Part shown: piece by piece, positions 1-16,052 of the stretch
How positions within the stretch are numbered: position 1 is the first letter of the stretch
How the letters are laid out: every line of letters starts with the position of its first letter
Assembly: GCA_016782645.1 (NCBI GenBank)
Contig: JADHYC010000022.1
Span: 1 to 36,736 of the forward strand
Origin: Fidelibacterota bacterium
GTDB taxonomy: Bacteria; Fidelibacterota; UBA2242
Direction: 5' to 3'
Length of the DNA stretch: 36,736 nucleotides
The notes under the pieces: model-generated
What the model was told of the DNA's origin: nothing
What the model saw: the letters and a program-made list of their open reading frames with translations, nothing else
Databases searched by the model: none
Position numbers and translations under genes: made by a program

Positions 1-323
1 TCAATAGCCTCTGAAATGGATACTTTAGAAGGAATATCATCAAAATATAAAAATTCACAAATCGCCATTCTAATTATAAGTCGATCAATAATTGCAATAC
101 GCTCAAAATCCCAATTCTTTGATTTTTCCTTAATATATTTATCTAATTCTTCTTTGTGCGCTGTGGATGATTCAAAAAGTTCTATAGAAAATTTTTTCAA
201 TTCTTCTGAAAGTTCTGATATATCAATAACATCAGACTCAACTACCTGTATGGTATTCTCTGTAAGTTCCTGAGCATACATAGCTTGCAGAGCAACTTCT
301 CGTGCGACTCGTCTCTCTCTCAT
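1..323 (-). CDS. nusB: Transcription antitermination factor NusB (partial)
   Basis: The minus strand is open from an ATG at 323 to the left edge, giving 107 residues; the C-terminus lies outside the window. The N-terminus reads MRERRVAREVALQAMYAQE, the usual NusB opening. Later segments NWDFERIAIIDRLIIRMAI and IPSKVSISEAIE match the conserved second half of the fold. NusB binds the boxA RNA element with NusE (S10) and helps antitermination on rRNA operons in the cytoplasm. A TTTGGAG stretch lies about 12 bases before the ATG and may be its ribosome binding site. The gene is transcribed away from the V-ATPase operon. Identification rests on the sequence pattern only but is very characteristic. 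Confidence 0.93.
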   Translation of the reverse strand, partial: MRERRVAREVALQAMYAQELTENTIQVVESDVIDISELSEELKKFSIELFESSTAHKEELDKYIKEKSKNWDFERIAIIDRLIIRMAICEFLYFDDIPSKVSISEAI

Positions 324-630
324 TTTTCAACAAACTCCAAAGGACAAATATTTCATACATTTAATTTACAATACTTTTAGAAAAATTAGAGATAAAATAA
401 TGCAAAATGCCTTTTTAAAATAAAAAAATCCCTTGACTACACTTTTCATCAGGCTTGATTTAGCCTAAGAAAAAAGGTATATTTGCCAAGTTAAATTTCG
501 TTGTTCCTTTGAATAAACTTGAGATAAAAATTAAAGATGAAGTGAACAAATTAAAATCATTTCCCCTCTATGATGTTGGATACACTTTACTACTAATCTC
601 ATTATTAAATAATGATAAAGGAGATTTTTA
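324..630. other. Divergent intergenic region between nusB and the V-ATPase operon
   Basis: About 300 bases without a gene separate two divergent transcription units. The right half holds the promoter listed separately and a leader of roughly 140 bases ending in an AAAGGAG ribosome binding site at about 618-623. I see no riboswitch, hairpin terminator or small gene here. Confidence 0.6.
455..485 (+). promoter_or_regulatory. Candidate promoter of the V-ATPase operon
   Basis: TTGATT at 455-460 and TATATT at 478-483 are separated by 17 bases, a good sigma-70-like pair. The downstream element read as TATATTTG (478-485) also fits the Bacteroidota consensus TAnnTTTG, with a TTG 20 bases upstream. 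Transcription would begin near 490. The sequence match is seen directly; activity is inferred. Confidence 0.5.
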
Positions 631-1233
631 ATGGATATAAAACTTAAAAACTTAATAGAGAAAATAAAAACTGAAGGTGTCGAGGAGGCAAAAAAGTCAT
701 CTAAAGAAATATTAGAAAATGCGAAACATGAGGCATCTTCAATATTAAAAAAAGCGCATAAAGACGCAGACAATATTATTGAAGAAGCCCAAAAAAGTGC
801 TGGTAAAATCAAAACCAATGCAGAATCAGCTTTAAGACAGGCAGAACGAGATACCGTTCTTGTTACTAAAGAAAAAATAACAAAACTTTTTGATAGAGTT
901 TTTAAAAAAGAGGTAACAAAAACCTTATCGCCTGAATTCCTGAGAGATCTAATCGTAAAAATGATAGAGAACTGGAAAGAAGATTTAAAATTAGAGTTTT
1001 TAGTTGGTGAAAAAGATATAGATAAACTAGAAGATTTACTGTTGTCAAAAACCAGAGAAAGCCTTAAAAATTCTGTTACTTTTAAAGTTGATAGTGGGAT
1101 TTCAAAAGGATTCCGTGTTGGTTCTAAAGGCGATAATGTTTATTATGATTTTACAGATCAGAATATATCGGACTTCCTGCGAGAATTCTTAAATCCATCC
1201 ATTAAAGAAATTTTAGATAGAGATAATGGATAA
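631..1233 (+). CDS. atpE: V-type ATPase subunit E
   Basis: First gene of the V-ATPase operon; 200 residues, the usual size for subunit E. Residues 1-100 are a long charged, alanine-rich helix of coiled-coil type, as expected for the peripheral stalk. Residues 105-200 form a compact alpha/beta C-terminal domain that in known enzymes caps the A/B headpiece. The start is set by AAAGGAG seven bases upstream. The 3' end overlaps the next gene by eight bases, so translation is probably coupled. No separate subunit G/H gene is found, so the partner stalk helix must come from elsewhere or be replaced. The call rests on position at the head of the operon plus architecture. Confidence 0.88.
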   Translation: MDIKLKNLIEKIKTEGVEEAKKSSKEILENAKHEASSILKKAHKDADNIIEEAQKSAGKIKTNAESALRQAERDTVLVTKEKITKLFDRVFKKEVTKTLSPEFLRDLIVKMIENWKEDLKLEFLVGEKDIDKLEDLLLSKTRESLKNSVTFKVDSGISKGFRVGSKGDNVYYDFTDQNISDFLREFLNPSIKEILDRDNG

Positions 1234-1723
1234 GTATTACTATTTCGTCGCACAGCTGCCATTATTATTCTTCGACAAAGAACCGCTCCTGAAAATAGAT
1301 GATTTCCTTGAAGAGGGTGAAAAATGGTTAAGCCAGAGTGACTTTGCAATTTTAATAAAAGTTGATATAAATGATATTACCATTTGTAAGAACGACCCCA
1401 TAGTATTGAAAGATTACAAAAAGTCCGAAAAACTTCTTCGTATTGACATAATGGAGTGGAGAAAAGCAAAAAAAATAAATCAAGAATACAAAACGATTAG
1501 CTTTCCTGTTTCTATTATCAAAGACGGAAATCCACTTCAGATAGAGGAAAATCTCATGTTATTAAGATGGAATTTTATTGAGGAAATAGAAAGCGACCAT
1601 CATTTTGATCTTGATTTCATCGTTTTATATTATTTGAAACTGCAGGTACTAAAAAGATTAAAAAGTTTTGACAAAGAAAAAGGGTTGGAAAAATTTAAAC
1701 AATTTACAGAAATAGGCGTATGA
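1226..1723 (+). CDS. DUF2764 family protein of the V-ATPase operon
   Basis: A 165-residue soluble protein beginning MDKYYYFVAQLPLLFFDKEP. The YYYFVAQLP opening and the location between subunits E and A are typical of DUF2764 proteins, which occupy the same slot in the V-ATPase operons of Bacteroidota, spirochaetes and chlamydiae. These operons lack a recognisable subunit C (the central-stalk adaptor) and subunit F. One reasonable inference is that DUF2764 takes over a stalk role, but nothing in the sequence proves it. It overlaps the upstream gene by eight bases and shares an ATGA start/stop with subunit A downstream, indicating tight coupling. No signal peptide or membrane segment is present. 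Confidence 0.8.
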   Translation: MDKYYYFVAQLPLLFFDKEPLLKIDDFLEEGEKWLSQSDFAILIKVDINDITICKNDPIVLKDYKKSEKLLRIDIMEWRKAKKINQEYKTISFPVSIIKDGNPLQIEENLMLLRWNFIEEIESDHHFDLDFIVLYYLKLQVLKRLKSFDKEKGLEKFKQFTEIGV

Positions 1724-3969
1724 ATAAAAAAAATGGCGAAATAATTGGAATTAACGGCAATATGATTACAGTTGCCTTCGATGGAAATATAATTCAAAAC
1801 GAAGTAGGTTATGCAATTACCGGCAATGAAAAGCTGAAATCCGAGGTTATTAAAATTCAAGGCAATAACGCATTCATGCAAGTTTTCGAAAGCACGAAGG
1901 GCTTGAAAGTTGGAGATTCTGTTGAATTTACCGGAGATATGCTTTCAGTACAGCTGGGACCGGGAATTTTAGGAATGGTTTACGATGGATTGCAGAATCC
2001 ACTGAATGAATTAGCACAAAAATATGGTTTTTTTCTGAAACGCGGCATTAGCTTGGACGCGCTGGATTTTATAAAAAAATGGGGTTTTGTACCAACAGTA
2101 AAGGTTGAAGACACTGTCACTGGCGGAAATTCTATAGGTTACGTTGTCGAGGATATCTTCAAACACTACATTTTTATACCCTTTCATTACAAAGGTGAGT
2201 ATGTTATTAAATCCATTGTCCCAAAAGGCGATTACACAGTAGAAGAAACAATAGCTTTGATAAAGGATAAGCGCGGCTCCGAAAAAGAACTAAAAATGTA
2301 TTTTGACTGGCCTGTGAAAATCCCCATCATTTCATATAGAGAAAAAATGGTTCCACATGAACCTTTAATAACACAGACCCGAATTATCGATACATTTTTC
2401 CCTGTTGCAAAAGGTGGAACATATTGTATTCCCGGTCCTTTCGGCGCCGGCAAGACCGTTCTTCAACAGGTAACCAGTAAATATGCCGAGGCAGATATCG
2501 TCATCATTGCTGCTTGCGGTGAGCGAGCAGGTGAAGTTGTTGAGACACTGAGAACATTCCCTGAAATAATTGACCCACGAACTGGAAAATTTCTCATGGA
2601 CCGAACAATTATTATTTGCAATACAAGTTCGATGCCTGTTGCAGCAAGGGACGCATCAGTTTATACTGCTACGACTTTGGGTGAATATTACAGACAGATG
2701 GGTTTAAATGTTCTGTTACTGGCTGATTCAACTTCTCGATGGGCACAAGCGATGCGCGAGTTATCGGGAAGACTTGAAGAGATACCGGGTGAAGAAGCTT
2801 TCCCAGCTTACCTCGAATCCAGAATAGCACAGTTTTATGAACGTGCAGGTCTCGTCGAATTAAATAATAGGAAAATCGGAAGTTTGACAATTGGAGGTAC
2901 CATTAGCCCAGCCGGTGGTAACTTTGAAGAACCGGTTACGCAGTCCACATTAAAAGTCGTTGGTGCTTTTCACGGACTTTCGAGAGATAGGTCAAATGCT
3001 CGGCGTTATCCGGCAATTCACCCTCTTGAAAGCTGGACTAAATATAACAGCTTTATTCCGGCTAATTTAGTTAATGAAGCGAAAAGTATTCTCTTCAAAG
3101 GAAATGAAGTTCACCAGATGATGTTAGTTGTCGGAGAAGAAGGTACATCGCTTGACGACTTTGAAATATACCTTAAATCAGAATTTTGTGATAGCGTTTA
3201 TTTACAACAGAATTCTTTTGATAAAGTTGACGGCGCCAGCTCGCCTGAAAGACAAAAGTACGTTTTTAAAAGGGTTCATGAGGTACTCACGAAAAAATTC
3301 GCACTAAAAGAGAAACAGGAAGCAAGGCGTTTTTTTAATAAACTAAGACAGCTGTTTATTGACTGGAATTATATTGATATGAAGACTGATAAATTCAAAG
3401 TCCAGGAGAAATTAATAATGCAATTGATTGAGGAATATTCAGGTGAGGTTACTGAGTCAACAGAGAAAGTTGTCGGTTCATTTCACGACCTCGCAAGAGA
3501 GGTATCAAGTGCAAGAATTTATCCTGCTGTTAATCATCTCGAAAGGTGGTCAAAAAGCTCTGATTTTGCTCCAGGAGGCTTGGTTGATGAAGTTAAAAGT
3601 ATTTTATTCAAAGGAAATGAAGTACACGAGATTATATTAGATGGTGGTGAAGAGGAAATCCCCATTGGCGATTTTGTAATATATCTAAAATCAGAATTTT
3701 TCAATAGTGTTAGTTTGAAGCTGAGCTCTATTGCCAAAGATGATGAAGTCAATTCTCCTGAAAGACAGAAGCATATTTTTACAAGGGTTCAGGAAATAAT
3801 TACAAGGGAATTTACACTGAAAGAAAAACAGGACGCAACAAATTTCTTTGACAATCTCAGACAATTTTTTATCGACTGGATTAATACGAAGCCAGATAAA
3901 TTTGAAGATCAAGAAGAATTAATAACAAATTTTATTAAGGAAAACTCTGAAGATGAGGAAAGTATATAA
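1720..3969 (+). CDS. atpA: V-type ATPase catalytic subunit A with duplicated C-terminal region
   Basis: Catalytic subunit of the rotary ATPase. The N-terminal barrel (about 1-75) and bulge domain precede the P-loop GPFGAGKT at 239-246. Next come the [11 protein letters not shown] segment with the catalytic glutamate and the Walker B region [16 protein letters not shown]. Family members of this type are about 580-590 residues, but this one is 749. The extra length is a second copy of the C-terminal region: residues 406-576 are canonical ([36 protein letters not shown]), and residues 577-749 repeat the same order of motifs in diverged form. It starts on an ATGA overlap with the DUF2764 gene, and its end overlaps subunit B by 17 bases. 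The frame is open throughout. Confidence 0.96.
2935..3447 (+). repeat. Tandem repeat unit 1 in subunit A (canonical copy)
   Basis: Codes for residues 406-576, starting at [14 protein letters not shown] inside the nucleotide-binding domain and running through the C-terminal helical domain. This copy keeps the usual ARRYPAI and VVGEEG motifs. The unit is 513 bases, in frame. It shares the near-identical block [11 protein letters not shown] with unit 2. Confidence 0.85.
3448..3966 (+). repeat. Tandem repeat unit 2 in subunit A (diverged copy)
   Basis: Codes for residues 577-749, starting at [14 protein letters not shown]. Roughly half of the residues match unit 1 when aligned by eye, including [24 protein letters not shown] and LKEKQ. 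ARRYPAI has become ARIYPAV and VVGEEG has become DGGEEE, so this copy has lost canonical residues. It retains the native end that overlaps subunit B. Confidence 0.85.
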
Positions 3970-5254
3970 TAAAATATTAAGCGTTGCTGGAAACGTTATC
4001 ACCGTTAAAGCAGGTGACATTTCTTACGAAGAACTTGCGGAAATTACAACTCAAAGAGGCAAATCTCTTGCTCAGGTAATTAAATTAGAAAATGATATTG
4101 TTTCTCTACAGGTTTTTGCCGGCAGCCAGGGTATCTCAACAAATGATGAGGTTCGATTTCTAGGAAATCCAATGAGAGTTACTTTCTCAGATAACATGCT
4201 CGGTCGAATCTTCAATGGCAGCGGCATACCAAGAGATAAAGGTCCTCTTTTAACAGACAATTTGATCCAGGTGGCAGGTCCTACAGTAAATCCGGCGAAA
4301 AGAATTATTCCTAAAAGAATGATCCGTACAAATATTCCAATGATTGATGTTTTTAATTCATTTGTTGTATCTCAAAAGTTACCGATTTTTTCTGTCTCCG
4401 GAGAGCCGTATAATGAACTTCTTGCACGCATTGCTCTTCAGGCAGAAGTTGATATGATCATTTTAGGAGGAATTGGGCTTAAGTATGATGAATATATGTT
4501 TTTCAAAAACACACTGGAAGAAGGCGGCGCTCTCAGTAGATCAATATTTTTTATACATACCGCTTCTGATCCTATTGTAGAAGGCTTAATGGTACCTGAC
4601 CTGAGTTTAGCAGTCGCTGAAAAGTTCGCTCTTAAGGGGAAAAATGTACTTGTTCTTCTTACTGACATGACAAACTTCGCAGATGCCTTAAAAGAGATCG
4701 CAATTACGATGGAACAGGTCCCGTCAAATAGAGGATATCCCGGAGATTTATACAGCCAATTGGCTGCAAGATATGAAAAAGCCGTTGACTTTGAAGATGC
4801 AGGATCAGTTACAATCTTAGCAGTAACTACAATGCCCGGTGATGATGTTACGCATCCGGTTCCCGACAATACAGGTTATATCACAGAAGGTCAATTCTAT
4901 CTAAGGAATGGACGTATTGAACCTTTTGGCTCCCTGAGCCGATTAAAACAGCAAGTAAATGATAAAACACGGGAAGACCATAGAGCAATTATGGATGGTA
5001 TGATCCAGTTATACGCTCAGTATATAGAAACTGAAGAAAAGAGAGCCATGGGTTTTAGAATGAATGTATGGGACAAAAAGCTATTGAAATATGGAAAACT
5101 CTTTGAATCGGAAATGATGGACTTATCAGTTAATATTTCCCTTGAAAAAGCTCTCGATCTTGGCTGGGAAATACTTGCGGACTGTTTTAATCCTGAAGAA
5201 ACGGGTATGAAATCCGACTTAATTAATAAATTCTGGCAAAAGGAATTATCTTAA
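3953..5254 (+). CDS. atpB: V-type ATPase subunit B
   Basis: Non-catalytic nucleotide-binding-fold subunit of the A3B3 headpiece; 433 residues, normal for bacterial subunit B. The sequence lacks a P-loop: the corresponding segment reads [20 protein letters not shown], as expected of B rather than A. The motifs [33 protein letters not shown] and the C-terminal [10 protein letters not shown] are all diagnostic. The start lies inside the last codons of subunit A (17-base overlap), and the stop overlaps the start of subunit D by one base. Expected to be cytoplasmic, alternating with subunit A. Confidence 0.96.
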
Positions 5255-5865
5255 TGCCCAAGATCCGGTTGACAAAAAATGAGCTGAAAAAGCAAAAAGA
5301 GATTTTAAAACGCTTAAACCGTTATCTGCCTACACTTGAGTTGAAAAAACAACAACTAATTATCGAAATAAGAAGCATCAGAAAAAACATCGAAACAATT
5401 AGTGGACAGATAAAACAGGCAGAAAAAGAGATTACAGAGTGGGTGGATGTTTTTGCAGAAGAAATAGATATATTCAATATATTAAGTGTTAAAGAAATAA
5501 AAACAACCACCGGAAATATAGCAGGAATTAACATTCCTATTTTTCAAGATGTATTATTTGAAGAAAATCCCTATGACCTTTTTCTAATACCACTTTGGGT
5601 GGATAAAGCTCTCGAAGTCTCAAAAAATCAAATAATTCTCAAAGCAAATATAAAAACTCTTAAAAAGCAGATGGAAATTTTAAGAGAAGAACTGAGAATT
5701 ACCGTTCAACGAATAAATTTATTTGAAAAAGTAAAAATCCCTGAATCAAAAGAAAACATTCGAGTAATCCAGATTTACTTAGGCGATTTACAAACTGCAG
5801 AAGTCGTGAGAGGCAAAATCGCAAAAAATAAAATTCAGAAGAAAAAGGAACTGGCTGTTGCATGA
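5254..5865 (+). CDS. atpD: V-type ATPase subunit D
   Basis: Central rotor shaft subunit, 203 residues. The opening PKIRLTKNELKKQKEILKRL followed by LPTLELKKQQLI is the standard start of bacterial D subunits. Long N- and C-terminal helices (about 1-75 and 125-195) would form the coiled-coil axle, with a short beta-rich segment between. The stop/start junctions (one-base overlap with B, ATGA overlap with I) imply coupled translation. Subunit F, which normally binds D, has no recognisable gene here. Confidence 0.93.
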   Translation: MPKIRLTKNELKKQKEILKRLNRYLPTLELKKQQLIIEIRSIRKNIETISGQIKQAEKEITEWVDVFAEEIDIFNILSVKEIKTTTGNIAGINIPIFQDVLFEENPYDLFLIPLWVDKALEVSKNQIILKANIKTLKKQMEILREELRITVQRINLFEKVKIPESKENIRVIQIYLGDLQTAEVVRGKIAKNKIQKKKELAVA

Positions 5866-7658
5866 TTGTTAAGATGCAAAAATTAACACTTTTCGTAAGT
5901 GCAAATCATAAAGATGATGCTCTTAACAAATTAAAGAAACTTGGTCTTGTTCATATCCATAATATAAATCAACCAATTTCTGAAGATATTACTTCTATTG
6001 AAACCGAGCTTAGTAATGTTGAGAGAAGTCTATCAATTATCGGTCTAAAAAACATCGAGGAATCCGACCGCTCCGTTGACTTTCTAAAAACGAAGTCACT
6101 TGTAGAAAATATTATCTCACTTGCAAGCACAAAAGATCAACTAAACAATGTGTTGGAAGAAGAAAAGGGGAAATTCAATTGGTTTCAGACGTGGGGTAAT
6201 GTTTCTATGTCTGAGATTGAAGAATTAAGAAATGCTGGCATTTACATCCGTTTATATACCAGCGATAAAAGCTATCTGAAAAAGCTTCCTGAAGACAGGA
6301 TGATATATGTAGTAAATGAAGATAAATACAAAGTTTATCTCGCGTTGGTTTCAACAGAAGAAAATTCTACTCTCGATCTTAAAGAAGAGATAATACCAGC
6401 GGATAATTTAAAATCAGTGAAAGATAAAATCGCTTCGACTGAAAAAGAGCTATTGCAGATAAATAAAAAAATAAATGACTTGTCAGAATTTCAGGCTGAT
6501 ATTTTAGCATATCAAGAAAAGATAAAGAAAAGATATGAATTCGCTAATGTAAAATATGGCATGGAAAATGAGGAATCAATCAGTTATTTACAGGGCTTTT
6601 GCCCCGAAGAATCTACTGATATTATTAAAAAGGAAGCTGACAAAGAAAGTTGGGGCTATGTTTTTGAAGAACCGGATGACTTAAGTGAGGTTCCAACTTT
6701 AATAAAAAATCCAAGATGGATTAAAATAATAGACCCAATCTTTAAATTCATGGGAACGGTACCGGGTTATCAGGAATATGATATCAGCATGTGGTTTCTC
6801 ATATTTTTCAGTCTGTTTTTTGCTATGTTAATTGGTGACGCCGGTTATGGATTTATTTTTATAGTGCTAACACTTTGGGCACGTCGAAAAATGCCCAAAG
6901 CACCATCCGAACCTTTTATACTTATGTATATTTTGGGTGGCGCTACAGTAATATGGGGGCTTCTAAGCGGAACATGGTTTGGTCTAGAAAGAATTGCTCA
7001 AATTCCCTTTTTGAAGAAGTGTATTATTCCCAGCATCTCAAGTTTTGATTTATCGAAACATAGTTTCAATGACAATCAGAACATCATGATGCAGCTGTGC
7101 TTCCTAATTGGCGCCATTCACCTCACTGTTGCACATTTAACTTCAGCTTTAAGGAATAAAAAATCCCTGAGAGCTTTATCTCAAATTGGCTGGATCGGAA
7201 TTGTCTGGTCACTCTACTTTCTTGCAGGAACATTGGTACTTCGGCATGAATTCCCAAAGATGGCAAAATGGCCTCTGTTAATTGGATTTTTTCTCGCACT
7301 AGTCTTTACAAATCCACAAAAAAATATAATTAAAGGTGTTGCCTCAACTTTAGGTAGTTTGCCTTTGGACATTATCGGTGCTTTTTCTGATGTAGTTTCC
7401 TACTTGCGATTATTTGCAGTAGGTTATGCGACAGTAATGGTTGCATACAGTTTTAACACAATGGCGCTCGGTAACGGCATCAACAATATAATCTCAGGCT
7501 TCATTGCTGCATTTATTTTATTTCTTGGACACGGATTAAACATTATTTTGGGTGCCATGTCAATAGTTGTTCACGGTATTCGTTTAAATATGCTCGAATT
7601 TTCCGGACACCTTGGAATGGAATGGTCCGGAAAAGAGTATAAACCGTTTAAAGAGTGA
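5862..7658 (+). CDS. atpI: V-type ATPase membrane subunit I
   Basis: The 598-residue stator subunit (equivalent of eukaryotic subunit a) that forms the ion half-channels against the rotor ring. Residues 1-290 are the cytoplasmic arm, with long helices. Residues 305-590 carry about seven or eight membrane spans, including MLIGDAGYGFIFIVLTLWAR and SYLRLFAVGYATVMVAYSFN, where the arginine in YLRLFA is the conserved channel arginine. The C-terminus NMLEFSGHLGMEWSGKEYKP is also typical. It overlaps subunit D through ATGA. Normally subunit K follows directly, but here about 1.75 kb including a foreign-looking two-gene segment intervenes. Confidence 0.95.
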   Translation: MIVKMQKLTLFVSANHKDDALNKLKKLGLVHIHNINQPISEDITSIETELSNVERSLSIIGLKNIEESDRSVDFLKTKSLVENIISLASTKDQLNNVLEEEKGKFNWFQTWGNVSMSEIEELRNAGIYIRLYTSDKSYLKKLPEDRMIYVVNEDKYKVYLALVSTEENSTLDLKEEIIPADNLKSVKDKIASTEKELLQINKKINDLSEFQADILAYQEKIKKRYEFANVKYGMENEESISYLQGFCPEESTDIIKKEADKESWGYVFEEPDDLSEVPTLIKNPRWIKIIDPIFKFMGTVPGYQEYDISMWFLIFFSLFFAMLIGDAGYGFIFIVLTLWARRKMPKAPSEPFILMYILGGATVIWGLLSGTWFGLERIAQIPFLKKCIIPSISSFDLSKHSFNDNQNIMMQLCFLIGAIHLTVAHLTSALRNKKSLRALSQIGWIGIVWSLYFLAGTLVLRHEFPKMAKWPLLIGFFLALVFTNPQKNIIKGVASTLGSLPLDIIGAFSDVVSYLRLFAVGYATVMVAYSFNTMALGNGINNIISGFIAAFILFLGHGLNIILGAMSIVVHGIRLNMLEFSGHLGMEWSGKEYKPFKE

Positions 7659-7707
7659 AACATGAAAAGACTCTATTCGGGAATTGGAATATTCAACTAC
7701 AAAAAAA

Positions 7708-7770
7708 ATACACACATTGCGTGATACATCATTACACGGAAGTATATATGCAATAAAGTGGCGTGTGTAT
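7708..7770. repeat. Imperfect hairpin upstream of the cassette boundary
   Basis: ATACACAC (7708-7715) pairs with GTGTGTAT (7763-7770), and ATTGC (7716-7720) pairs with GCAAT (7750-7754), leaving AAAGTGGC unpaired on one side. The structure ends four bases before GTTAGGC. Such a bulged hairpin just before a GTTRRRY core is reminiscent of an integron attC or a relic of one, but no convincing complementary left core was found. A 20-codon open frame (7662-7724) right after subunit I ends inside it. Confidence 0.4.
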
Positions 7771-7811
7771 AGATGTTAGGCGAAATTTAGTTTAATATCG
7801 AGGAGGATAAC

Positions 7812-9119
7812 ATGACGGCTGAAATTGCGATAATGAATAAAGAGGCAATTGCTCTTGCTGCTGATAGTGCTGTTACAATGAGTCAAGAAAGTGGACAAAA
7901 GGTCTTTACCTCAGCTAATAAGCTTTTTACTCTTTCTAAATTTTATCCTGTAGGTATGATGGTTTATGGAAGTGCTAGTTTTATGGGAGTTCCTTGGGAA
8001 ACTATAATAAAAATATATAGGAACAAATTAGGTAAACGGAAGTTTGGCACATTAAATAAATATGCTGATGATTTTATAGCCTTTTTGGATAATGGTAATC
8101 CATTATTTCCCGAGGATCAGCAAAAAAAGTATTTATATGGAAGTACCTTTAGTTATTTTACTCTAATTAGGGAAGAGATCGAAAAAAAAGTAAAATCAAT
8201 TGTGGAGAAAGAAGGAAAAATTGAGATTGATCAAATCGAGGAGATAACATCTGATGCCATAAAAGAACACTATGATAAGTTGCAAAAGACCAAAATGTTA
8301 CAATCGATTCCGACGAACTATATTGAAAACATAATAAATAAGTATGGAGACATTATTGATAAAGCAAAAGAAAAAATATTTGAAAAATTGCCAGTATCTA
8401 CGGGTTCGCTAAATAAATTGAGAAAAATTGCTGCAAGTTTATTTTCAAAAGATATTTTTCAATCTAATATCTCTGGAGTAGTAATTGCTGGTTTTGGAGA
8501 GAAAGATACATTTCCTTCACTAAAGTCATTCGATATCGAAGGGATTGTTAATAATAAGTTGAAATATAGACGTAGAGAAAGTTTATCAGTAGAAATTGGT
8601 TTTGAAAACAATGCTACAATTATCCCCTTTGCTCAAAGAGAAATGGTAGCAGCATTTATGACAGGCATTGATCCTTATTTACAGGATCAAATAGAAGGTT
8701 ATTTATCTGAAATATTTGATAAATATCCAGAGATTATTGTTGAAAATATAGAAAAATTTGATTATAATGAAAAAAAGATGCTTAAAGAAAAATTAAAAAA
8801 ACTGAGCAATAACATATTTAAAAAATATCAAGAAGACATCGAAACTTATAGAACGAAGAGTTATGTAGATCCTGTTATAAGAGTAGTTGCTATGCTTCCG
8901 AAGGATGAACTTGCTGTGATGGCTGAGACACTCGTAAGTTTAACGTCATTCAAACGTAAAGTTACAATGGATGAAACGGTAGGCGGACCTATCGATGTCG
9001 CTGTAATTTCTAAAGGTGATGGACTCGTCTGGATTAAGAGGAAACATTATTTTAGATCAGAATTAAATCCTCAGTTCTTTGCTAACTACTATAGGGAAGT
9101 AAAAGATGGTAAGAAGTAA
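7812..9119 (+). CDS. Proteasome-like Ntn-hydrolase family protein
   Basis: 435 residues beginning MTAEIAIMNKEAIALAADSA. After removal of Met1 the protein would expose Thr as residue 1; Asp18 in LAADS then sits at the position of proteasome/HslV Asp17, and Lys37 (ANKLFTL) is near the expected catalytic lysine. VYGSASFMG and VVIAGFGEKDTFPSLKSFDI resemble later proteasome beta-subunit strands. A charged, helical stretch of about 130 residues (roughly 85-215) interrupts the fold, making it about twice as long as HslV. AGGAGG lies five bases before the ATG. No signal peptide is seen, so a cytoplasmic protease or amidohydrolase is inferred. It has no evident link to the ATPase and appears to be cassette cargo. 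The substrate is unknown. Confidence 0.75.
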   Translation: MTAEIAIMNKEAIALAADSAVTMSQESGQKVFTSANKLFTLSKFYPVGMMVYGSASFMGVPWETIIKIYRNKLGKRKFGTLNKYADDFIAFLDNGNPLFPEDQQKKYLYGSTFSYFTLIREEIEKKVKSIVEKEGKIEIDQIEEITSDAIKEHYDKLQKTKMLQSIPTNYIENIINKYGDIIDKAKEKIFEKLPVSTGSLNKLRKIAASLFSKDIFQSNISGVVIAGFGEKDTFPSLKSFDIEGIVNNKLKYRRRESLSVEIGFENNATIIPFAQREMVAAFMTGIDPYLQDQIEGYLSEIFDKYPEIIVENIEKFDYNEKKMLKEKLKKLSNNIFKKYQEDIETYRTKSYVDPVIRVVAMLPKDELAVMAETLVSLTSFKRKVTMDETVGGPIDVAVISKGDGLVWIKRKHYFRSELNPQFFANYYREVKDGKK

Positions 9120-9282
9120 GAAAAAAAAGAGAGTGTACAACTCGATGATGGAGTTTGAGAAGAAATTTTTCCCGAATTCTTTCAGAAAAAGATTTTCAGA
9201 GATGTCTACTGACTCCCGTACTCTGGGGATTAGTTTAGCTAGAGAATCTTTAAATACGATCAAACGTCGGCTAGTGAAATAA
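9106..9282 (+). CDS. Small basic hypothetical protein of the cassette (58 aa)
   Basis: An ATG at 9106 overlaps the end of the Ntn-hydrolase gene by 14 bases and opens a 58-codon frame. The product starts with a lysine/arginine-rich tail (MVRSKKKKRVYN). It continues with a probable helical part containing FEKKFFPNSFRKRFSEM and LGISLARESLNTIKRRL. The overlap suggests translational coupling with the larger gene, and both lie inside the putative cassette, so they probably travel together. The family is not recognised. It could be a partner, regulator or substrate of the hydrolase, or an unrelated peptide. No membrane segment is visible. Confidence 0.55.
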   Translation: MVRSKKKKRVYNSMMEFEKKFFPNSFRKRFSEMSTDSRTLGISLARESLNTIKRRLVK

Positions 9283-9291
9283 CTAAACTTC

Positions 9292-9378
9292 GCCTAACAC
9301 AGCACAAAAGGTTCGTGCCTTTGGCACTTCGCCCAAATTCCATTTTGATGAACTTCAGATACACTCAAATCGTCAGGC
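9292..9378 (+). other. attC-like recombination site
   Basis: GCCTAAC at 9292-9298 and GTCAGGC at 9372-9378 are near-complementary outer cores 73 bases apart, with one mismatch. AGGTTCGT near 9310 can pair with ATGAACTT near 9350 (six Watson-Crick pairs and two G-T pairs) as an inner box. A small hairpin GTGCC-TTT-GGCAC lies in the loop. Total length of 87 bases is within the attC size range. The folding was done by eye, so no score is available. Confidence 0.5.
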
Positions 9379-9412
9379 AAAATTTTAACACATAATACAA
9401 AGGAGAAAAGAT

Positions 9413-9853
9413 ATGGTTGAAGGTTTAGGTGATATGAATTTTTCTCTGGCAATTGCTGCAATCGGTTCTGCGCTTGGGACCGGTGTTGCTGGCATGGCAG
9501 CTATAGGAGCATGGAAAAAAGCGTTTGCTCAAAATAAAGCGGCGCCATTCATTCTCGTTGCTTTCGTTGGTGCACCATTGACCCAGACTATTTACGGTAT
9601 GATTTTAAGAAACGCTATTCAGACTGCTAATCTTCCACCTGAGTCATACACCCATCAGATGATCCTCGGCTTTATTACTGGCTTAGCAATGGGAATGTCA
9701 GCCTATATGCAAGGTAAAGCCGGTGCAAAAGCATCTGATGCTCTTGCTGAAACAGGTAAAGGATTCGGTAATTACATCATGGTTATCGGTGTGATTGAAA
9801 CAGTTGCACTATTTGTAATGGTATTTTGTATGACAGCGCTTCCAAAAGCTTAA
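9413..9853 (+). CDS. atpK: V-type ATPase rotor ring subunit K
   Basis: 146 residues with four membrane helices, the duplicated-hairpin c-ring form found in V-type enzymes. Only the second hairpin carries the ion-binding glutamate, Glu129 in GVIETVALF. Thr57-Gln58 and Tyr61 (PLTQTIYG) and Gln100 (YMQGKAG) align with Thr64, Gln65, Tyr68 and Gln110 of Enterococcus hirae NtpK, whose ring binds Na+. Sodium coupling is therefore likely, though this is inferred. AAAGGAG precedes the ATG. Although separated from subunit I by the cassette, the gene is intact and on the same strand. A terminator-like hairpin follows within about 130 bases. Confidence 0.95.
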   Translation: MVEGLGDMNFSLAIAAIGSALGTGVAGMAAIGAWKKAFAQNKAAPFILVAFVGAPLTQTIYGMILRNAIQTANLPPESYTHQMILGFITGLAMGMSAYMQGKAGAKASDALAETGKGFGNYIMVIGVIETVALFVMVFCMTALPKA

Positions 9854-9893
9854 TAGAGCCGTCTGATCTTCATCTTTAAAATAATAAGAAAAA

Positions 9894-9921
9894 TTAGCCC
9901 ACGACTTAAGTCGTGGGTTAA
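9894..9921. repeat. Perfect palindrome downstream of subunit K
   Basis: CCCACGACTTAAGTCGTGGG at 9898-9917 is a perfect 20-base palindrome, extended by TTA/TAA across one mismatch. No T-run follows, so it is not a classical terminator. It has the look of a dispersed palindromic repeat; copy number cannot be judged from one window. Confidence 0.6.
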
Positions 9922-9954
9922 TGATAAACACCCTTATAAAAATAACAGTTTCAA

Positions 9955-9986
9955 CCTGCCCGACTTTGGTCAGGCGGGCGGTTTTT
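9955..9986 (+). terminator. Rho-independent terminator of the V-ATPase operon
   Basis: A GC-rich stem pairs CTGCCCG (9956-9962) with CGGGCGG (9975-9981), with a small inner AC/GT extension and a bulge. It is followed directly by TTTTT (9982-9986). The position about 100 bases after the subunit K stop, before a convergent operon, fits. Confidence 0.65.
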
Positions 9987-10021
9987 CCCTCTAAAAATTT
10001 ATCTTTTTTAAGTGTACTCAA

Positions 10022-10073
10022 AAATAAAAGAAAAAGAATTCATTCTAAGAATTTGATTTCATTACAAATCAAA
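10022..10073 (-). terminator. Possible AT-rich terminator of the etf-glcD operon
   Basis: Read on the minus strand, TTTGATTT (10073-10066) pairs with AAATCAAA (10059-10052) around a six-base loop that includes the glcD stop codon. A second weak AATTC/GAATT hairpin follows and then a T-rich run (about 10039-10022). It is AT-rich and therefore weak; the convergent position supports it. Confidence 0.35.
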
Positions 10074-11489
10074 AATCTTGCCCGGATTCAATATATTATT
10101 GGGATCAAAAGCAAGTTTAACTCTTTTCATCAATTCTACAGTCACAGGTTCTAAAACCATATCAAGATACTTTTTCCTCTTATGACCGATACCATGTTCA
10201 CCACTGATTGTACCGCCAAGTTCGACCACTTTCTTATAAACTTCTGATCGAACCTCCTCCAGAGTCACTTTCCATTCTTCGATTTCCATCTCAGGTTTCT
10301 TAATAATTGTTGAATGGATGTTTCCATCACCTGCATGACCAAAACAGGGAATAAGGACATTATATTTATCAGCAATTACTTTTAACTCAGGTAGGATTTT
10401 AGGAATATTTGATAGGGGAACAACTATATCCTCAGAACTTTTAGATGAAGAATAGGCAGTAAGTGCTTCTGGAATATTTCTCCTGACTTTCCACACCCTT
10501 TCTTGAGTTGTATAATTATCAGCAACAAGAACATCTATTGCATCGTTTTCAAGACAGAACTCACCAATAGTCTCATATTCTTCTTCCAATTGGGTTTTAC
10601 TATTCCCATCAATCTCAATCAAAAGCATCGCACCTGCTTCTTCATGCGGATAGGGCTCATTCAGATATTTATATGCAGTCTGCATAGAGAACCTATCTAT
10701 AAATTCCATAGAGGTTGGAATTATTTTACCATTCCCTATTATTTTGGGAACCATTTGTACTGCTGTTTCCACATCTTTAAAAAGAACCAATAAATCTATT
10801 TTTTCAGTCGGTAAAGGTAATAACTTGATTATGATCTTTGTAAATATTCCAAGTGTACCTTCAGAACCAACCATAAGCTTTATAAAATCATAACCTACAA
10901 CATCTTTTACCCTCTTCCCTCCTAAGTTGATAATGTCACCCTCCGGCGTCACAACTTCCAGACCCAATATATATCGCCCTGTTACCCCGTATTTAACCGC
11001 TCTCCCTCCACCTGCATTCTCTGCTACATTTCCTCCTATAAAACAACTCTCAACACTCATCGGATAACCGGCAAAAAATAACCCATATTCTTTAACCTTT
11101 TCATTTATATCATTCGTCACAACACCCGGCTCAACAACTGCCATCAAATTTTCTTTGTCAATCTCAAGTATCTCATTCATCCTCTCTACTGACAATAAAA
11201 TTCCACCATAGAGCGGAACAGCACCACCTGATAATCCACTCCCTGCACCTCGTGGCGTAATAGGTATTCTCTCTATATTTGCAAGTTTCATTACATGAGA
11301 AATCTCCTCAGCGGTTCGAGGTTTGATAACTACCTCTGGCATTTTTGCATAACTCTTCTCTACTATCTCATCATGCGAATATGGTTCTAATTTCTCAGGA
11401 TCATCATATACAACATATTTTGCACTAACTATGTCTTTAAGTTTGTCAACTATTTCTTGTGTTACTTTATTATATGTACAATCAGACAC
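10062..11489 (-). CDS. glcD: FAD-linked oxidase, GlcD/lactate dehydrogenase type (copy 1)
   Basis: 475 residues of the FAD-binding type 4 (PCMH) oxidase family. The flavin-binding loops are PRGAGSGLSGGAVP (79-92) and GGNVAENAGGGRAVKYGVTG (152-171). The C-terminal cap domain carries GHAGDGNIHS, SGEHGIGHKRKKYL and the terminal NILNPGKIF. The family oxidises D-lactate, glycolate or similar 2-hydroxy acids. Downstream of etfBA, as here, the likely acceptor is the ETF, as in the LctBCD lactate dehydrogenase of Acetobacterium. The start is GTG with AGAGG just upstream. It is the last gene of the operon, 75 bases after its paralogue. Residues 78-236 differ from the paralogue at one position. The exact substrate is not determined by sequence. 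Confidence 0.92.
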   Translation of the reverse strand: MSDCTYNKVTQEIVDKLKDIVSAKYVVYDDPEKLEPYSHDEIVEKSYAKMPEVVIKPRTAEEISHVMKLANIERIPITPRGAGSGLSGGAVPLYGGILLSVERMNEILEIDKENLMAVVEPGVVTNDINEKVKEYGLFFAGYPMSVESCFIGGNVAENAGGGRAVKYGVTGRYILGLEVVTPEGDIINLGGKRVKDVVGYDFIKLMVGSEGTLGIFTKIIIKLLPLPTEKIDLLVLFKDVETAVQMVPKIIGNGKIIPTSMEFIDRFSMQTAYKYLNEPYPHEEAGAMLLIEIDGNSKTQLEEEYETIGEFCLENDAIDVLVADNYTTQERVWKVRRNIPEALTAYSSSKSSEDIVVPLSNIPKILPELKVIADKYNVLIPCFGHAGDGNIHSTIIKKPEMEIEEWKVTLEEVRSEVYKKVVELGGTISGEHGIGHKRKKYLDMVLEPVTVELMKRVKLAFDPNNILNPGKIFDL

Positions 11490-11564
11490 TTTATAACCTC
11501 TTTAATTTATTATCTCTATTTCTCGAAATCTCGGTAAGTCAACAAATTTGTAAATCTTTTACCT

Positions 11565-12992
11565 TTACAGATTAAAAATCTTGCCCGGGTTCAATATATT
11601 GTTTGGATCAAAAGCAAGTTTGACTCTTTTCATCAGCTCCAATGTAACTGGTTCTAAAGCCTGCCCAATGTATTTTTTCCTTTTATGACCAACTCCATGT
11701 TCACCACTGATTGTACCGCCAAGTTCAACAGTTTTTTGATACATTTCCGTAAGTACTTTATCCAGAGTTTCCTCCCACTTCTTATCATCCATCTCAGGTT
11801 TTTTGACAACTGTAGCGTGAAGATTTCCATCTCCAGCATGACCATAACAAGGAATAAGAACATCATATTTATCGGCAATTACTTTTAACTCAGGTAAGAT
11901 CTTAGGAATATTAGCCATAGGAACAACTATATCTTCCAGGGTCTGGATTGGCGAATACACTTTAAGAGCCTCAGCAATATTTCTCCTGACTTTCCATACT
12001 CTCTCTTGAGTTGTGTAATTATCAGCAACAAAAACATCTATCGCATCATTTTCAAGACATAGCGCACCAATTGTCTCATATTCTTCTTCCAATTGGGTCT
12101 TACTATTCCCATCAACTTCAATCAAAAGCATAGCGCCTGCTTCTTCATGTGGGAGATGCTCATTCAGATACTTATAAGAAGTATGAAAAGACAATTTATC
12201 CATAAATTCCACTGCTGTCGGAATGATCCTTCCATTTGTCATTATCATCGGTACCATTTTTATCGCTGTTTCTACATCATTAAAAAGAACTAGTAAATCT
12301 ATTTTTTCAGTCGGTAAAGGCAACAACTTGATTATGATCTTTGTAAATATTCCAAGTGTACCTTCAGAACCAACCATAAGCTTTATAAAATCATAACCAA
12401 CTACATCCTTTACCCTCTTCCCACCTAAATTGATAATGTCACCTTCCGGAGTCACTACTTCCAAACCCAATATATATCGCCCTGTCACTCCATATTTAAC
12501 CGCTCTTCCTCCACCTGCATTCTCTGCTACATTTCCTCCTATAAAACAACTCTCAACACTCATCGGATAACCGGCAAAAAATAACCCGTATTCTTTAACC
12601 TTTTCATTTATATCATTCGTCACAACACCCGGCTCAACAACTGCCATCAAATTCTCTCTATCAATCTCCAGTATCTCATTCATCCTCTCTACTGACAATA
12701 AAATTCCACCATAGAGCGGAACAGCACCACCTGATAATCCACTCCCTGCACCTCGTGGCGTAACAGGTATTCTCTCTCGATTTGCAAGTTTCATTACCCG
12801 AGAAATCTCCTCAACGGTTCGAGGTTTGATAACAACCTCAGGCATACTTGCATAACTCTTCTCTGCTATCTCATCATGCGAATATGGCTCCAATTTCTCA
12901 GTATCTTCATAAATCACATATTTTGAGTCAATTATCTCTTTAAGCTCATCAACTATTTCCTGTGTTACTTTATTATATGTATAATCAGACAC
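11565..12992 (-). CDS. glcD: FAD-linked oxidase, GlcD/lactate dehydrogenase type (copy 2)
   Basis: 475 residues, same family, length and motifs as the neighbouring copy, including PRGAGSGLSGGAVP, GHAGDGNLHA and GEHGVGHKRKKYI. It begins with GTG after AAGGGGA and lies 25 bases downstream of etfA. The product would oxidise a 2-hydroxy acid and pass electrons to the ETF. The C-terminal half, which shapes the substrate pocket, differs more from copy 1 (for example AVEFMDKLSFHTSYKY versus SMEFIDRFSMQTAYKY), so the two may handle different substrates. No iron-sulfur partner (GlcF/LldE type) lies in the operon. The pair clearly arose by tandem duplication. Confidence 0.92.
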   Translation of the reverse strand: MSDYTYNKVTQEIVDELKEIIDSKYVIYEDTEKLEPYSHDEIAEKSYASMPEVVIKPRTVEEISRVMKLANRERIPVTPRGAGSGLSGGAVPLYGGILLSVERMNEILEIDRENLMAVVEPGVVTNDINEKVKEYGLFFAGYPMSVESCFIGGNVAENAGGGRAVKYGVTGRYILGLEVVTPEGDIINLGGKRVKDVVGYDFIKLMVGSEGTLGIFTKIIIKLLPLPTEKIDLLVLFNDVETAIKMVPMIMTNGRIIPTAVEFMDKLSFHTSYKYLNEHLPHEEAGAMLLIEVDGNSKTQLEEEYETIGALCLENDAIDVFVADNYTTQERVWKVRRNIAEALKVYSPIQTLEDIVVPMANIPKILPELKVIADKYDVLIPCYGHAGDGNLHATVVKKPEMDDKKWEETLDKVLTEMYQKTVELGGTISGEHGVGHKRKKYIGQALEPVTLELMKRVKLAFDPNNILNPGKIFNL

Positions 12993-13017
12993 TTTAAAAA
13001 TCCCCTTATTTGTTTCT

Positions 13018-14016
13018 TTATTGTTTCAATGCTTCTAATTTTTTTGTTAAAACAGGTAAAACTTCAAATAAATCAGCAACGATTCCGTAATCCGCAACCT
13101 GAAAAATTTGTGCTTCAGGATCGCTGTTAATTGCAACAATATTTTCTGCTGTTTTAATACCTGCAAGATGCTGAACTGAGCCTGAAATACCAACCGCCAT
13201 ATAAAACTTCGGACTAACCGTTTTTCCGCTTAATCCGACCTGATGAGGATAAGTTGCCCATTTAAGATCAACAGCTTCCCTCGAAGCACCCACAGCTCCA
13301 TCCAATAGTGCTGCAATATTACGTATCATCTGAAAATTCTCTTCTTTTTTCAAACCTTTACCACCAGAAATTACAACATCAGCATCCTGGATGTTGGCAT
13401 CTTCCTCCTGATTAATTTTAAAATCCAATTTCTTGATCCTGCTTTTTAAAATTGATTTGTCAACTTTTTCATAAATAATATCACCGGTTCGACTATTATC
13501 AGGAACCAGAGGTTTATTTGAATGAGGTCTTACGGTCGCCATCTGAGGTCTATACTTCGGAGTCATTATCGTAGCAAGAATATTTCCACCAATAGCAGGT
13601 CTTGTCTGAATAAGATTCCCGGTCTCCTCTTCAATATCTAAATCAGTACAGTCAGCTGTAAGTCCGGTAATACATTTAATAGCTACTGCCGGCATAACTG
13701 TTCTTCCAGTAGTAGTAGCACTGGCAATTATTATCTCAGGATTGTATTTTTGAATAAGTGAGGCGACAGTATTAGCATAAGGCTCGGGGAGAAAATATTC
13801 AAGCGACGTGTCTTCTATTACAATAACTTTGTTTGCTCCTCTATAAATAAGTTCCTGAAGGCCCTCTTTGTCTATACTTTTTCCCAGAATAATAGCCACA
13901 AGTTTAACATTTCGTTTATCTGCTAAAAATCGCCCTCGTGTTAACAGCTCATAGGAAACTAACTTAATTTTTCCATCTTCCTGTTCACTTAAAACCCAAA
14001 CATCTTTGTAAGACAT
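13018..14016 (-). CDS. etfA: Electron transfer flavoprotein subunit alpha
   Basis: 332 residues. The C-terminal FAD-binding domain contains GLSGKTVSPKFYMAVGISGS, VQHLAGIKTAENIVAINSDP and FQVADYGIVADLFEVLP, the diagnostic ETF-alpha stretch. The N-terminal alpha/beta domain begins at once, so the ferredoxin extension found on some bifurcating ETF-alpha proteins (for example A. woodii LctC) is absent. It is encoded 12 bases after etfB and 25 bases before a glcD gene. With EtfB it shuttles electrons between the flavin oxidases and an NAD(H), ferredoxin or membrane acceptor. Which acceptor is used cannot be read from this sequence alone. Confidence 0.95.
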   Translation of the reverse strand: MSYKDVWVLSEQEDGKIKLVSYELLTRGRFLADKRNVKLVAIILGKSIDKEGLQELIYRGANKVIVIEDTSLEYFLPEPYANTVASLIQKYNPEIIIASATTTGRTVMPAVAIKCITGLTADCTDLDIEEETGNLIQTRPAIGGNILATIMTPKYRPQMATVRPHSNKPLVPDNSRTGDIIYEKVDKSILKSRIKKLDFKINQEEDANIQDADVVISGGKGLKKEENFQMIRNIAALLDGAVGASREAVDLKWATYPHQVGLSGKTVSPKFYMAVGISGSVQHLAGIKTAENIVAINSDPEAQIFQVADYGIVADLFEVLPVLTKKLEALKQ

Positions 14017-14028
14017 GTTTTATTCCTC

Positions 14029-14826
14029 TTAGATAATCTCTTTTTTCTGTAAATATTCAATCAAGCCATCAACAGCTTTATCCAATTCACTTTCATTTTT
14101 CGGCATTAATATTTCACCACCCCGGCTTACTTTTGGTTTTGAAATTTTCACTACCCGTGTAGGAGAACCTTCCAGACCGAGATAATCCTTTTTCGCTCCT
14201 ATATCATCAGGACCCCACGTCTTTATTTCCTTCTTTTTCGCAAGTAATTTCCCTCTCATCGAAGGTAATCTCGGATAATTTATCTCTTTAATAACTGTCA
14301 ACAGGCAAGGTGTCTCAATCTCCAGTATTTCATATCCCGTTTCAACCATCCGTTGAACAATCATACTGTTTTCATTCACCTCTTTAATGTTACTAACATA
14401 AGTAGTGAAAGGAATATCCAGCCATGCAGCGATTCCGGGACCAACCTGACCTGTATCTCCATCCGTTGCTCTTTCGCCACATATTATCAGGTCATACGGA
14501 TTGAACTTTTTAATTGCCTGAGATAAAGCGTATGAAGTCGCTAAAGTATCCGAACCGGCAAACTCTTTATTAGAAAGAAGAATTCCATCATCACAACCCA
14601 TAGATATAGCTTCCCTAATAGCCATCTCAGCCTTCGCCGGTCCCATAGAAATGACGAGAATCTCGCCACCATGTTCCTCTTTAAGGTTAACAGCCTCCTC
14701 AATCGCGTATAAATCAAGTGGATTAATTATAGACTCAACCCCATCTCTAATCATAGTGCCAGTTTCCGGGTCCATCGAAACATTACTGGTTTCAGGCACT
14801 TGCTTGATAGGCACAATTATTTTCAA
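14029..14826 (-). CDS. etfB: Electron transfer flavoprotein subunit beta
   Basis: 265 residues beginning MKIIVPIKQVPETSNVSMDP, the standard EtfB opening. CGERATDGDTGQVGPGIAAWL is the ETF-beta signature around the nucleotide site (AMP in ordinary ETFs, a second FAD in bifurcating ones). The start is TTG, supported by AAGGAG seven bases upstream. It pairs with etfA immediately downstream. A 44-codon ORF precedes it by 19 bases. The combination with two GlcD-type genes argues for a dedicated catabolic ETF rather than one serving fatty-acid oxidation. Confidence 0.95.
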   Translation of the reverse strand: MKIIVPIKQVPETSNVSMDPETGTMIRDGVESIINPLDLYAIEEAVNLKEEHGGEILVISMGPAKAEMAIREAISMGCDDGILLSNKEFAGSDTLATSYALSQAIKKFNPYDLIICGERATDGDTGQVGPGIAAWLDIPFTTYVSNIKEVNENSMIVQRMVETGYEILEIETPCLLTVIKEINYPRLPSMRGKLLAKKKEIKTWGPDDIGAKKDYLGLEGSPTRVVKISKPKVSRGGEILMPKNESELDKAVDGLIEYLQKKEII

Positions 14827-14845
14827 CTCTATCTCCTTTTAGTTC

Positions 14846-14980
14846 TTATTTTTTATCAGGAAGTCTCGATTTCATCCCTTCAATTAGTTCTTCAATTTCA
14901 TCAAATTTAGAACGAATCTTTTCAATTAGCTCCCTATCTTTTTCCTGTTTTCTCTCAGAATTCGTTTCGCTAATTCTCAC
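14846..14980 (-). CDS. Small charged helical ORF leading the etf operon (44 aa)
   Basis: A GTG at 14980 opens a 44-codon frame ending 19 bases before etfB. The product is almost entirely charged and helix-forming (SERKQEKDRELIEKIRSKFDE, then a C-terminal LPDKK). An AGAGG lies directly against the start, which is closer than usual, so translation is uncertain. The codon use looks coding, and the placement is that of a first operon gene. The family is not recognised. It may be a true small protein or a chance frame in the leader. Confidence 0.35.
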   Translation of the reverse strand: MRISETNSERKQEKDRELIEKIRSKFDEIEELIEGMKSRLPDKK

Positions 14981-15395
14981 CTCTATATTAAACTGCTAAT
15001 TTTCCCGGAAACTTAGATAAGATCAATTTTAAATACTACTACAACTATTTTATAAAAGCGCATTGGATTTACAAAAATCATTTACAAAAAATTCTTATCA
15101 CTTTTAAGCAGGTAATATAAAAATTTCTATGCCATAAAAAACACTATATTTTGTAGTCGGGGAAACTTCTAACACAATGAAAAAAATAAAATGTTCCAAG
15201 AGACAATTTCTTAATAGAAAACCAAAAATGGTAACTTCCTACCAAACAGAAAAGTATATAGGCAGAATGATTTGATTAGTACATTACCACAAGATTTTTA
15301 GTCCGACATTCTATTTAGTATCCAACTTAGGATGTTCTAAAAATACTTTATCAAATAAACAATATCTATTATCAATCGAGGAAAAGATCAATTTT
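14981..15395. other. Intergenic region upstream of the etf-glcD operon
   Basis: About 415 AT-rich bases between two minus-strand units. On the minus strand a weak promoter candidate is TTTTTG, 17 bases, TATAAA, at roughly 15050-15090. A 32-codon plus-strand frame starting near 15178 has no ribosome binding site and is not supported. I see no hairpin or repeat of note. Confidence 0.4.
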
Positions 15396-16052
15396 TCAAA
15401 TACTGGAAAGACCAATCCCATTTACTCGTAACACTACAAAAATATGAAGTCCCATCCCAAATAGAAAATTTAGAATAGGAGGATAAAGTTTCAGAGAACG
15501 TACCTCGCGTTCAATTAACAGGTTATGATACCTGAACCAATCTTTCCATTCTTTTGCCGTATTGTAGCGATATAAACAAGGAATACCATAGGGTAAATTC
15601 CGCGCCCAATCAAAGAGAGAAATTCGCAGTTTTGCGAATATACCCTCAACCTTGTGGTCTTTGATAATGATCAAACGTCTTGAAACTCGTACACATTCAG
15701 CAATTAAATTGTGAGGATCTGGTTCGTGATGCAAGACATCAGAGAGGATAACGATGTCAAAAGAATTATCTTGATATGGAATCTTACAACCGTCATACAA
15801 TTCGATCGGTACATGTTCAATAGCATGCTTAACCAGTTCCAATCCTGTAACTTTAACCCCAGGCAGGCAGTATGGAGATTCCATGATTGCCAGACCCAAT
15901 GCGCCTGAACCGCAGCCAACATCAAGTACACAATCACCTTCACGAAGGTGTATCGTAATATGTTTCACGAGTTCTCTAAGACGTGATTTATTTATTACTA
16001 TTGGATACAGAAGTTTTATCAGTAGAGCCAGTAAAGCTTTAATAGGTTTCAT
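15396..16052 (-). CDS. Class I SAM-dependent methyltransferase
   Basis: 218 residues with the Rossmann-fold SAM-binding motifs. Motif I is CVLDVGCGSGALGLAI (about 42-57), the acidic strand-2 end is GLEL, and the post-motif DNSFDIVILSDVLHHEPDP carries the usual DVLHH pattern of the Methyltransf_11/25 type. The N-terminus MKPIKALLALLIKLLYP is hydrophobic and may touch the membrane. The C-terminal part (FGMGLHIFVVLRVNG) is also hydrophobic, suggesting a lipid or quinone-like substrate, but that is speculative. No clear ribosome binding site is seen. It is isolated from its neighbours by 140 bases or more. Confidence 0.85.
   Translation of the reverse strand: MKPIKALLALLIKLLYPIVINKSRLRELVKHITIHLREGDCVLDVGCGSGALGLAIMESPYCLPGVKVTGLELVKHAIEHVPIELYDGCKIPYQDNSFDIVILSDVLHHEPDPHNLIAECVRVSRRLIIIKDHKVEGIFAKLRISLFDWARNLPYGIPCLYRYNTAKEWKDWFRYHNLLIEREVRSLKLYPPILNFLFGMGLHIFVVLRVNGIGLSSI

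Follow-up and report, generated by a model that had tools for sequence, protein, structure and literature searches.

A probable integron gene cassette with a hybrid attC site between the V-ATPase subunit I and K genes of a Fidelibacterota bacterium

Genes at the V-ATPase locus

The stretch of DNA analyzed here, referred to as the window, comprises 36,736 nt of contig JADHYC010000022.1 from a Fidelibacterota genome (assembly GCA_016782645.1; G000) and harbors a V-ATPase operon in which the genes for subunits I and K are separated by an insert. Subunit I (5862-7658, plus strand; Pfam V_ATPase_I) has an 87% identical orthologue in a second genome of the same genus, G001, and subunit K (9413-9853, plus strand; Pfam ATP-synt_C), the right neighbor of the insert, directly follows subunit I in relatives. 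Subunit K was detected in 22 of 40 relatives, and the two genes adjoin in all 23 relative loci with a gap of about 30-300 bp and without the insert. Among the relatives sampled, we found no empty site in a close relative. The insert is filled by two overlapping ORFs of 435 aa (7812-9119) and 58 aa (9106-9282), both on the operon strand; as stated in the initial annotation, this content is foreign to the operon. The same two genes are not kept here in all relatives; they are absent from 22 of them.

A promoter scan gave scores no better than those of shuffled sequences, and one weak terminator-like site was found on the plus strand at 9214, within the 58-aa ORF. Since the cassette is oriented with the operon, it is probably co-transcribed with the V-ATPase genes. 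Elsewhere in the window, reading of the translation indicates an apparent tandem duplication of ∼140 residues at the C-terminal end of the V-ATPase subunit A ORF (1720-3969, 749 aa). Two tandem, nearly alike 475-aa genes for FAD-linked oxidases (glycolate/lactate dehydrogenase-like; 10062-11489 and 11565-12992, minus strand) are located upstream of electron-transfer-flavoprotein-like genes.

Pfam and NCBIfam returned no useful match for the cargo, and the PADLOC match (NsnC, E 0.0015) was weak. A sequence profile of the protein run against the PDB gave cullin and coiled-coil matches that are probably due to chance, with proteasome beta reaching only E 0.3; the identity of the cargo was settled by structural fold comparison and not by PDB sequence profiles. 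The predicted structure of the 435-aa protein (pLDDT 86, pTM 0.81) matches proteasome beta and Anbu subunits with a fold match probability of 1.00, and the sequence matches phrog_5990 (E 5e-122). Residues T2, D18, and K37 are invariant in 40 sequences, and helical insertions are modelled at residues 101-209 and 318-361, after H1/H2 and between H3/H4. PMI-4 is described as a wide-spread protein with a proteasome-beta fold, the residues Thr1/Asp17/Lys, and insertions after H1/H2 and between H3/H4; according to the same passages of that paper, PMI-3 also has both helical insertions, PMI-4 being the widespread one (PMC8665760). In its modelled fold, its Thr/Asp/Lys residues, its insertions, and its bacterial and archaeal spread (224 related stretches in genomes of both domains), our protein resembles PMI-4 and is probably a member of this group, with N-terminal-threonine hydrolysis as its likely activity.

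In contrast to PMI-4 as portrayed in those passages of PMC8665760, where neither a small partner nor a cassette setting was found, the 435-aa gene is followed by that of a conserved 58-aa protein, and a related small ORF follows the homologue in most homologous loci. In L074, a locus from Methanophagales, two attC sites of the same family as the one described below flank the gene pair. This is reminiscent of archaeal integrons and cross-domain cassettes (PMC9668308); the text of that paper does not mention proteasome, ANME, or Methanophagales, and we did not find the gene pair as cassette cargo there.

Core boxes and a hybrid attC

The initial annotation had placed attC core boxes at 7775, 9292, and 9372, and all of them are present (GTTAGGC, GCCTAAC, and GTCAGGC, respectively). 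As GTTAGGC is not rare in the genome, with 70 copies in 2.56 Mb, a number below that of the reversed control, the cores by themselves prove nothing. The first two of them are embedded in an inverted repeat on the plus strand, the left arm of which (7774-7792) forms the cassette start whereas the right arm (9281-9299) includes the attC R''. The 17 matches in 18 nt reported previously hold over the stretch quoted, and the full extent is 19 nt with 18 matches. Core boxes, R-arm pairing, and a match to an attC model delimit a cassette at 7776-9372 (plus strand), from the T of G/TTAGGC to the G of G/TCAGGC. In the circular form, joining of G9372 to T7776 restores GTTAGGC, which pairs with R'', and R-arm pairing extends over 17 of 18 positions. 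Similar R-arm extensions occur in the cassette of G001 (16/19) and in one cassette of locus L187 (18/21), with different inner sequences. Extended R-arm pairing in the circular form thus accounts for the length of the inverted repeat, and no transposon is needed to explain it.

For an independent assessment of the proposed 87-base attC-like site (9292-9378), we used a covariance model, R1, built from eight attC sites including that of the archaeal locus L074 and excluding the window. R1 matches the plus strand at 9290-9378 with 36.9 bits (E 8.4e-7), compared to 10.1 bits for the second-best hit in the window, and the earlier view of a gene cassette with an attC between subunits I and K is thereby supported: an attC, albeit with a degenerate R', is found at the 3' end, R'' pairs over 17 of 18 positions, and 22 relatives lack the insert. 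A comparison with Rfam gave nothing relevant.

BLAST searches with the attC of G001 revealed related sites in another five family genomes, as well as a weak second site in G001. Over 39 sites of this attC family, 93% of the stem cells are paired, and the stem covariation score is 0.655, compared to 0.168 after shuffling and at most 0.14 for slid alignments. In 711 kb of other loci, R1 gave only three clear matches, all in archaeal loci. The L box of the family starts 1-3 nt past R'' as compared to about 6 in class 1 attCs, and class 1 plasmid attCs are not matched by R1; therefore, the family is distinct. A simple R/L-box scanner detects class 1 attCs and misses the window attC, because the stem of the latter is broken.

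Six of the eleven pairs between the stem arms (9301-9311 and 9355-9365) are disrupted, which makes the window attC the only one of the 39 sites with more than three broken pairs; in this it differs from all 38 others, and it does not fold with complementary L boxes. For comparison, the archaeal attC that follows this gene pair (L074:6482-6566) retains 11 of 11 stem pairs. While R'' is intact (GCCTAAC, 9292-9298), the degenerate R' core (GTCAGGC, 9372-9378) reads GTC and not GTT. The left half of the site matches sites of type CAGCATAAAAGG at 20 of 22 positions and the right half matches sites of type AGATACRCTC at 22-23 of 27, and both types are poor on the opposite half (14-17/27 and 12/22). 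Judged from sequence, the simplest reading of the broken stem is decay by hybridization of two attC types. As the halves are of two types, at least two cassettes probably sat at this site once, and a second one was probably deleted: tandem attCs would have recombined through their common center CTTCGCCCAAAT, removing the downstream cassette and leaving the hybrid attC. Of the earlier claim of one cassette, the cassette itself stands, but a history with a single cassette probably does not. The stem mismatches and the GTC in the core should both hamper excision, and the window cassette is probably frozen.

A second attC-like family of ∼132 bp is found at G000:C47:24348-24479 and G000:C107:422-553 and 12523-12650. 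Its L box resembles the one in the class 1 aac(6')-Ib attC. One copy is neighbored by two genes in reversed orientation that look like a toxin-antitoxin module. This family differs in type from the window attC.

Integrase, dispersed cassettes, and the congener locus

None of the ORFs listed for positions 1-16000 of the window is an integrase, as the initial annotation had noted. An intact integron integrase gene is located on another contig (G000:C38:26041-26985; 484.6 bits, cut-off 265), and integron integrases above the cut-off are present in 7 of 16 genomes of the family, counting the present one. Moreover, the genome carries ten additional attC sites, that is, at least eleven of this type, a lower bound as part of the candidates were scored; the cassette is thus not the lone one it had been taken for. 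Two of six lone sites, on C85 and C20, were inspected, and the attC on C20 closes a two-gene cassette with extended R-arm complementarity. With the scattered attC sites and the C20 cassette, dispersed cassettes are thus a usual feature of this genome.

Several further loci with attC sites were observed. L027 (G000:C30:3600-6900) contains three attC sites with small genes and without an integrase, flanked by housekeeping genes, one geranylgeranyl-reductase-like and the other for a DinG-like helicase. L187 (G004:C11:199000-212092), in a 98% complete genome, has at least six attC sites and many DNA methyltransferase genes. On G000:C40, an attC-type site (L023:13862-13958) is found at a distance of ∼600 bp from the gene (14534-15691) of a tyrosine recombinase of 385 aa which is not a typical IntI. 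By eye, an attI-like stretch, roughly GATATAGTCA.TTA...AGTCG.ATAAACGT.GTT, is common to three genomes, in each of them located after intI (L017:10100-10180 and the regions downstream of intI in L150 and L153); the integrase gene would share the direction of the cassettes.

Clusters of attC sites and single attC sites without an integrase are known as CALIN and SALIN, respectively. The window resembles these in having an attC cassette with no neighboring integrase and an IntI encoded on another contig. It differs from them in its hybrid attC and in its probably recurrent core-operon address, with different cassettes in two species. In G001, a different insert directly follows subunit I: it begins at GTTAAGC, contains a different ORF, and is closed by an attC, GCCTAACACGGTGTTTGTGG...CACAAACACCTATACCGTTG, which is homologous to the family of the window attC. 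Because the contig ends inside this attC and subunit K was not found in the G001 genome, the right junction is unseen there. The address between subunits I and K is an unusual one for cassettes and probably recurrent.

The left flanks of window and G001 are alike up to about position 7713 and diverge beyond. This border region contains an attC-like structured site on the plus strand (7691-7781; scanner match) with R'' ATTCAAC at 7691-7697, the core GTTAGGC at 7775-7781, and an 8-bp stem formed by ATACACAC (7708-7715) and GTGTGTAT (7763-7770). The corresponding site in G001 has an identical R'', a 9-bp stem at equal offset, and three compensatory differences relative to the window. Stems of at least 8 bp in this geometry arose in 4 of 2000 and 5 of 2000 shuffles. 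The upstream site is not matched by R1, and its alignment to sequence downstream of intI genes revealed no significant similarity for the window. On the basis of these two species and with moderate confidence, we regard 7691-7781 as a candidate for an older structured attachment site.

Origin of the insert

Our preferred reading is that 7776-9372 is an integron gene cassette, in all likelihood inserted in trans between subunits I and K by the integrase encoded on C38. A circular cassette would have recombined via its folded attC strand into the attC-like site at 7691-7781, which would have been part of the operon already in the common ancestor of both species. Downstream of this cassette, at least one other would have been present and later deleted, and the remaining one, with its mismatched stem and GTC core, would now be hard to excise.

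A competing scenario, which we consider possible if clearly not favored, is ordinary entry at a secondary site of the attG type, with the hairpin at 7691-7781 as mere local structure and the congeners hit independently. Cassette insertion at attG sites in the chromosome, outside the integron, has been described (Loot et al. 2024, Nat Microbiol, as related in PMC12901181), and both the dispersed cassettes elsewhere in the genome and the missing R1 match of the upstream site are in line with it. However, the two species share address, R'', stem offset, and the three compensatory differences. An attG is a target without attC or attI structure, whereas here an attC-like structure is present upstream; the exact empty site was not among the genomes seen, and a plain attG is not established. 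The secondary-site insertion proposed initially holds with regard to the cassette, but the site may not be a plain one in view of the attC-like site upstream and the different congener cassette.

It is unlikely that the sites belong to a tyrosine recombinase other than IntI. G004:C11 carries the longest array, which is co-oriented with a spacing of about 1-2 kb, and no integron integrase was detected in G004 at E 1e-60; the site on C40 lies near a non-IntI tyrosine recombinase, and the L-box spacing is unusual. These observations would suit such an enzyme, yet the R''/R' cores, the structure-based conservation, and the layout are those of an integron, and IntI is intact here and present in about half of the family. 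A transposon or MITE whose termini are 19-bp inverted repeats, which the near-perfect repeat might suggest, is highly improbable: there is no transposase ORF in the insert, the sequences beyond the repeat ends differ without target duplication, the site continues as attC to 9378, and equivalent R-arm pairing is seen in further cassettes of the family, where the sequences are unrelated. Least plausible is an old, vertically inherited part of the operon, with which the shared strand would agree, as the insert is absent from 22 relatives, the congener has a different gene, and homologues occur in unrelated contexts in two domains.

Under the cassette reading, the I-K junction of this genus could, tentatively, represent a satellite cassette dock, a structured attachment site without an integrase of its own, where an integrase acting in trans would exchange different cassettes in different species and an always-on core operon would express them. 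The evidence that the insert is a cassette is strong, whereas a dock and a past deletion are what we infer. Cassettes outside integrons are already known, and the present locus adds a naturally occurring instance of insertion outside an integron, for which a congener can be compared, as well as a gene pair found among the cassettes of bacteria and archaea. It also suggests a route by which attC x attC recombination freezes a mobile cassette into the genome. Cassettes usually depend on a promoter from their surroundings, which a housekeeping operon as landing site would provide; it would also tie capture to core energy metabolism. Besides its core function, the operon may thus serve as a point of entry for mobile genes.
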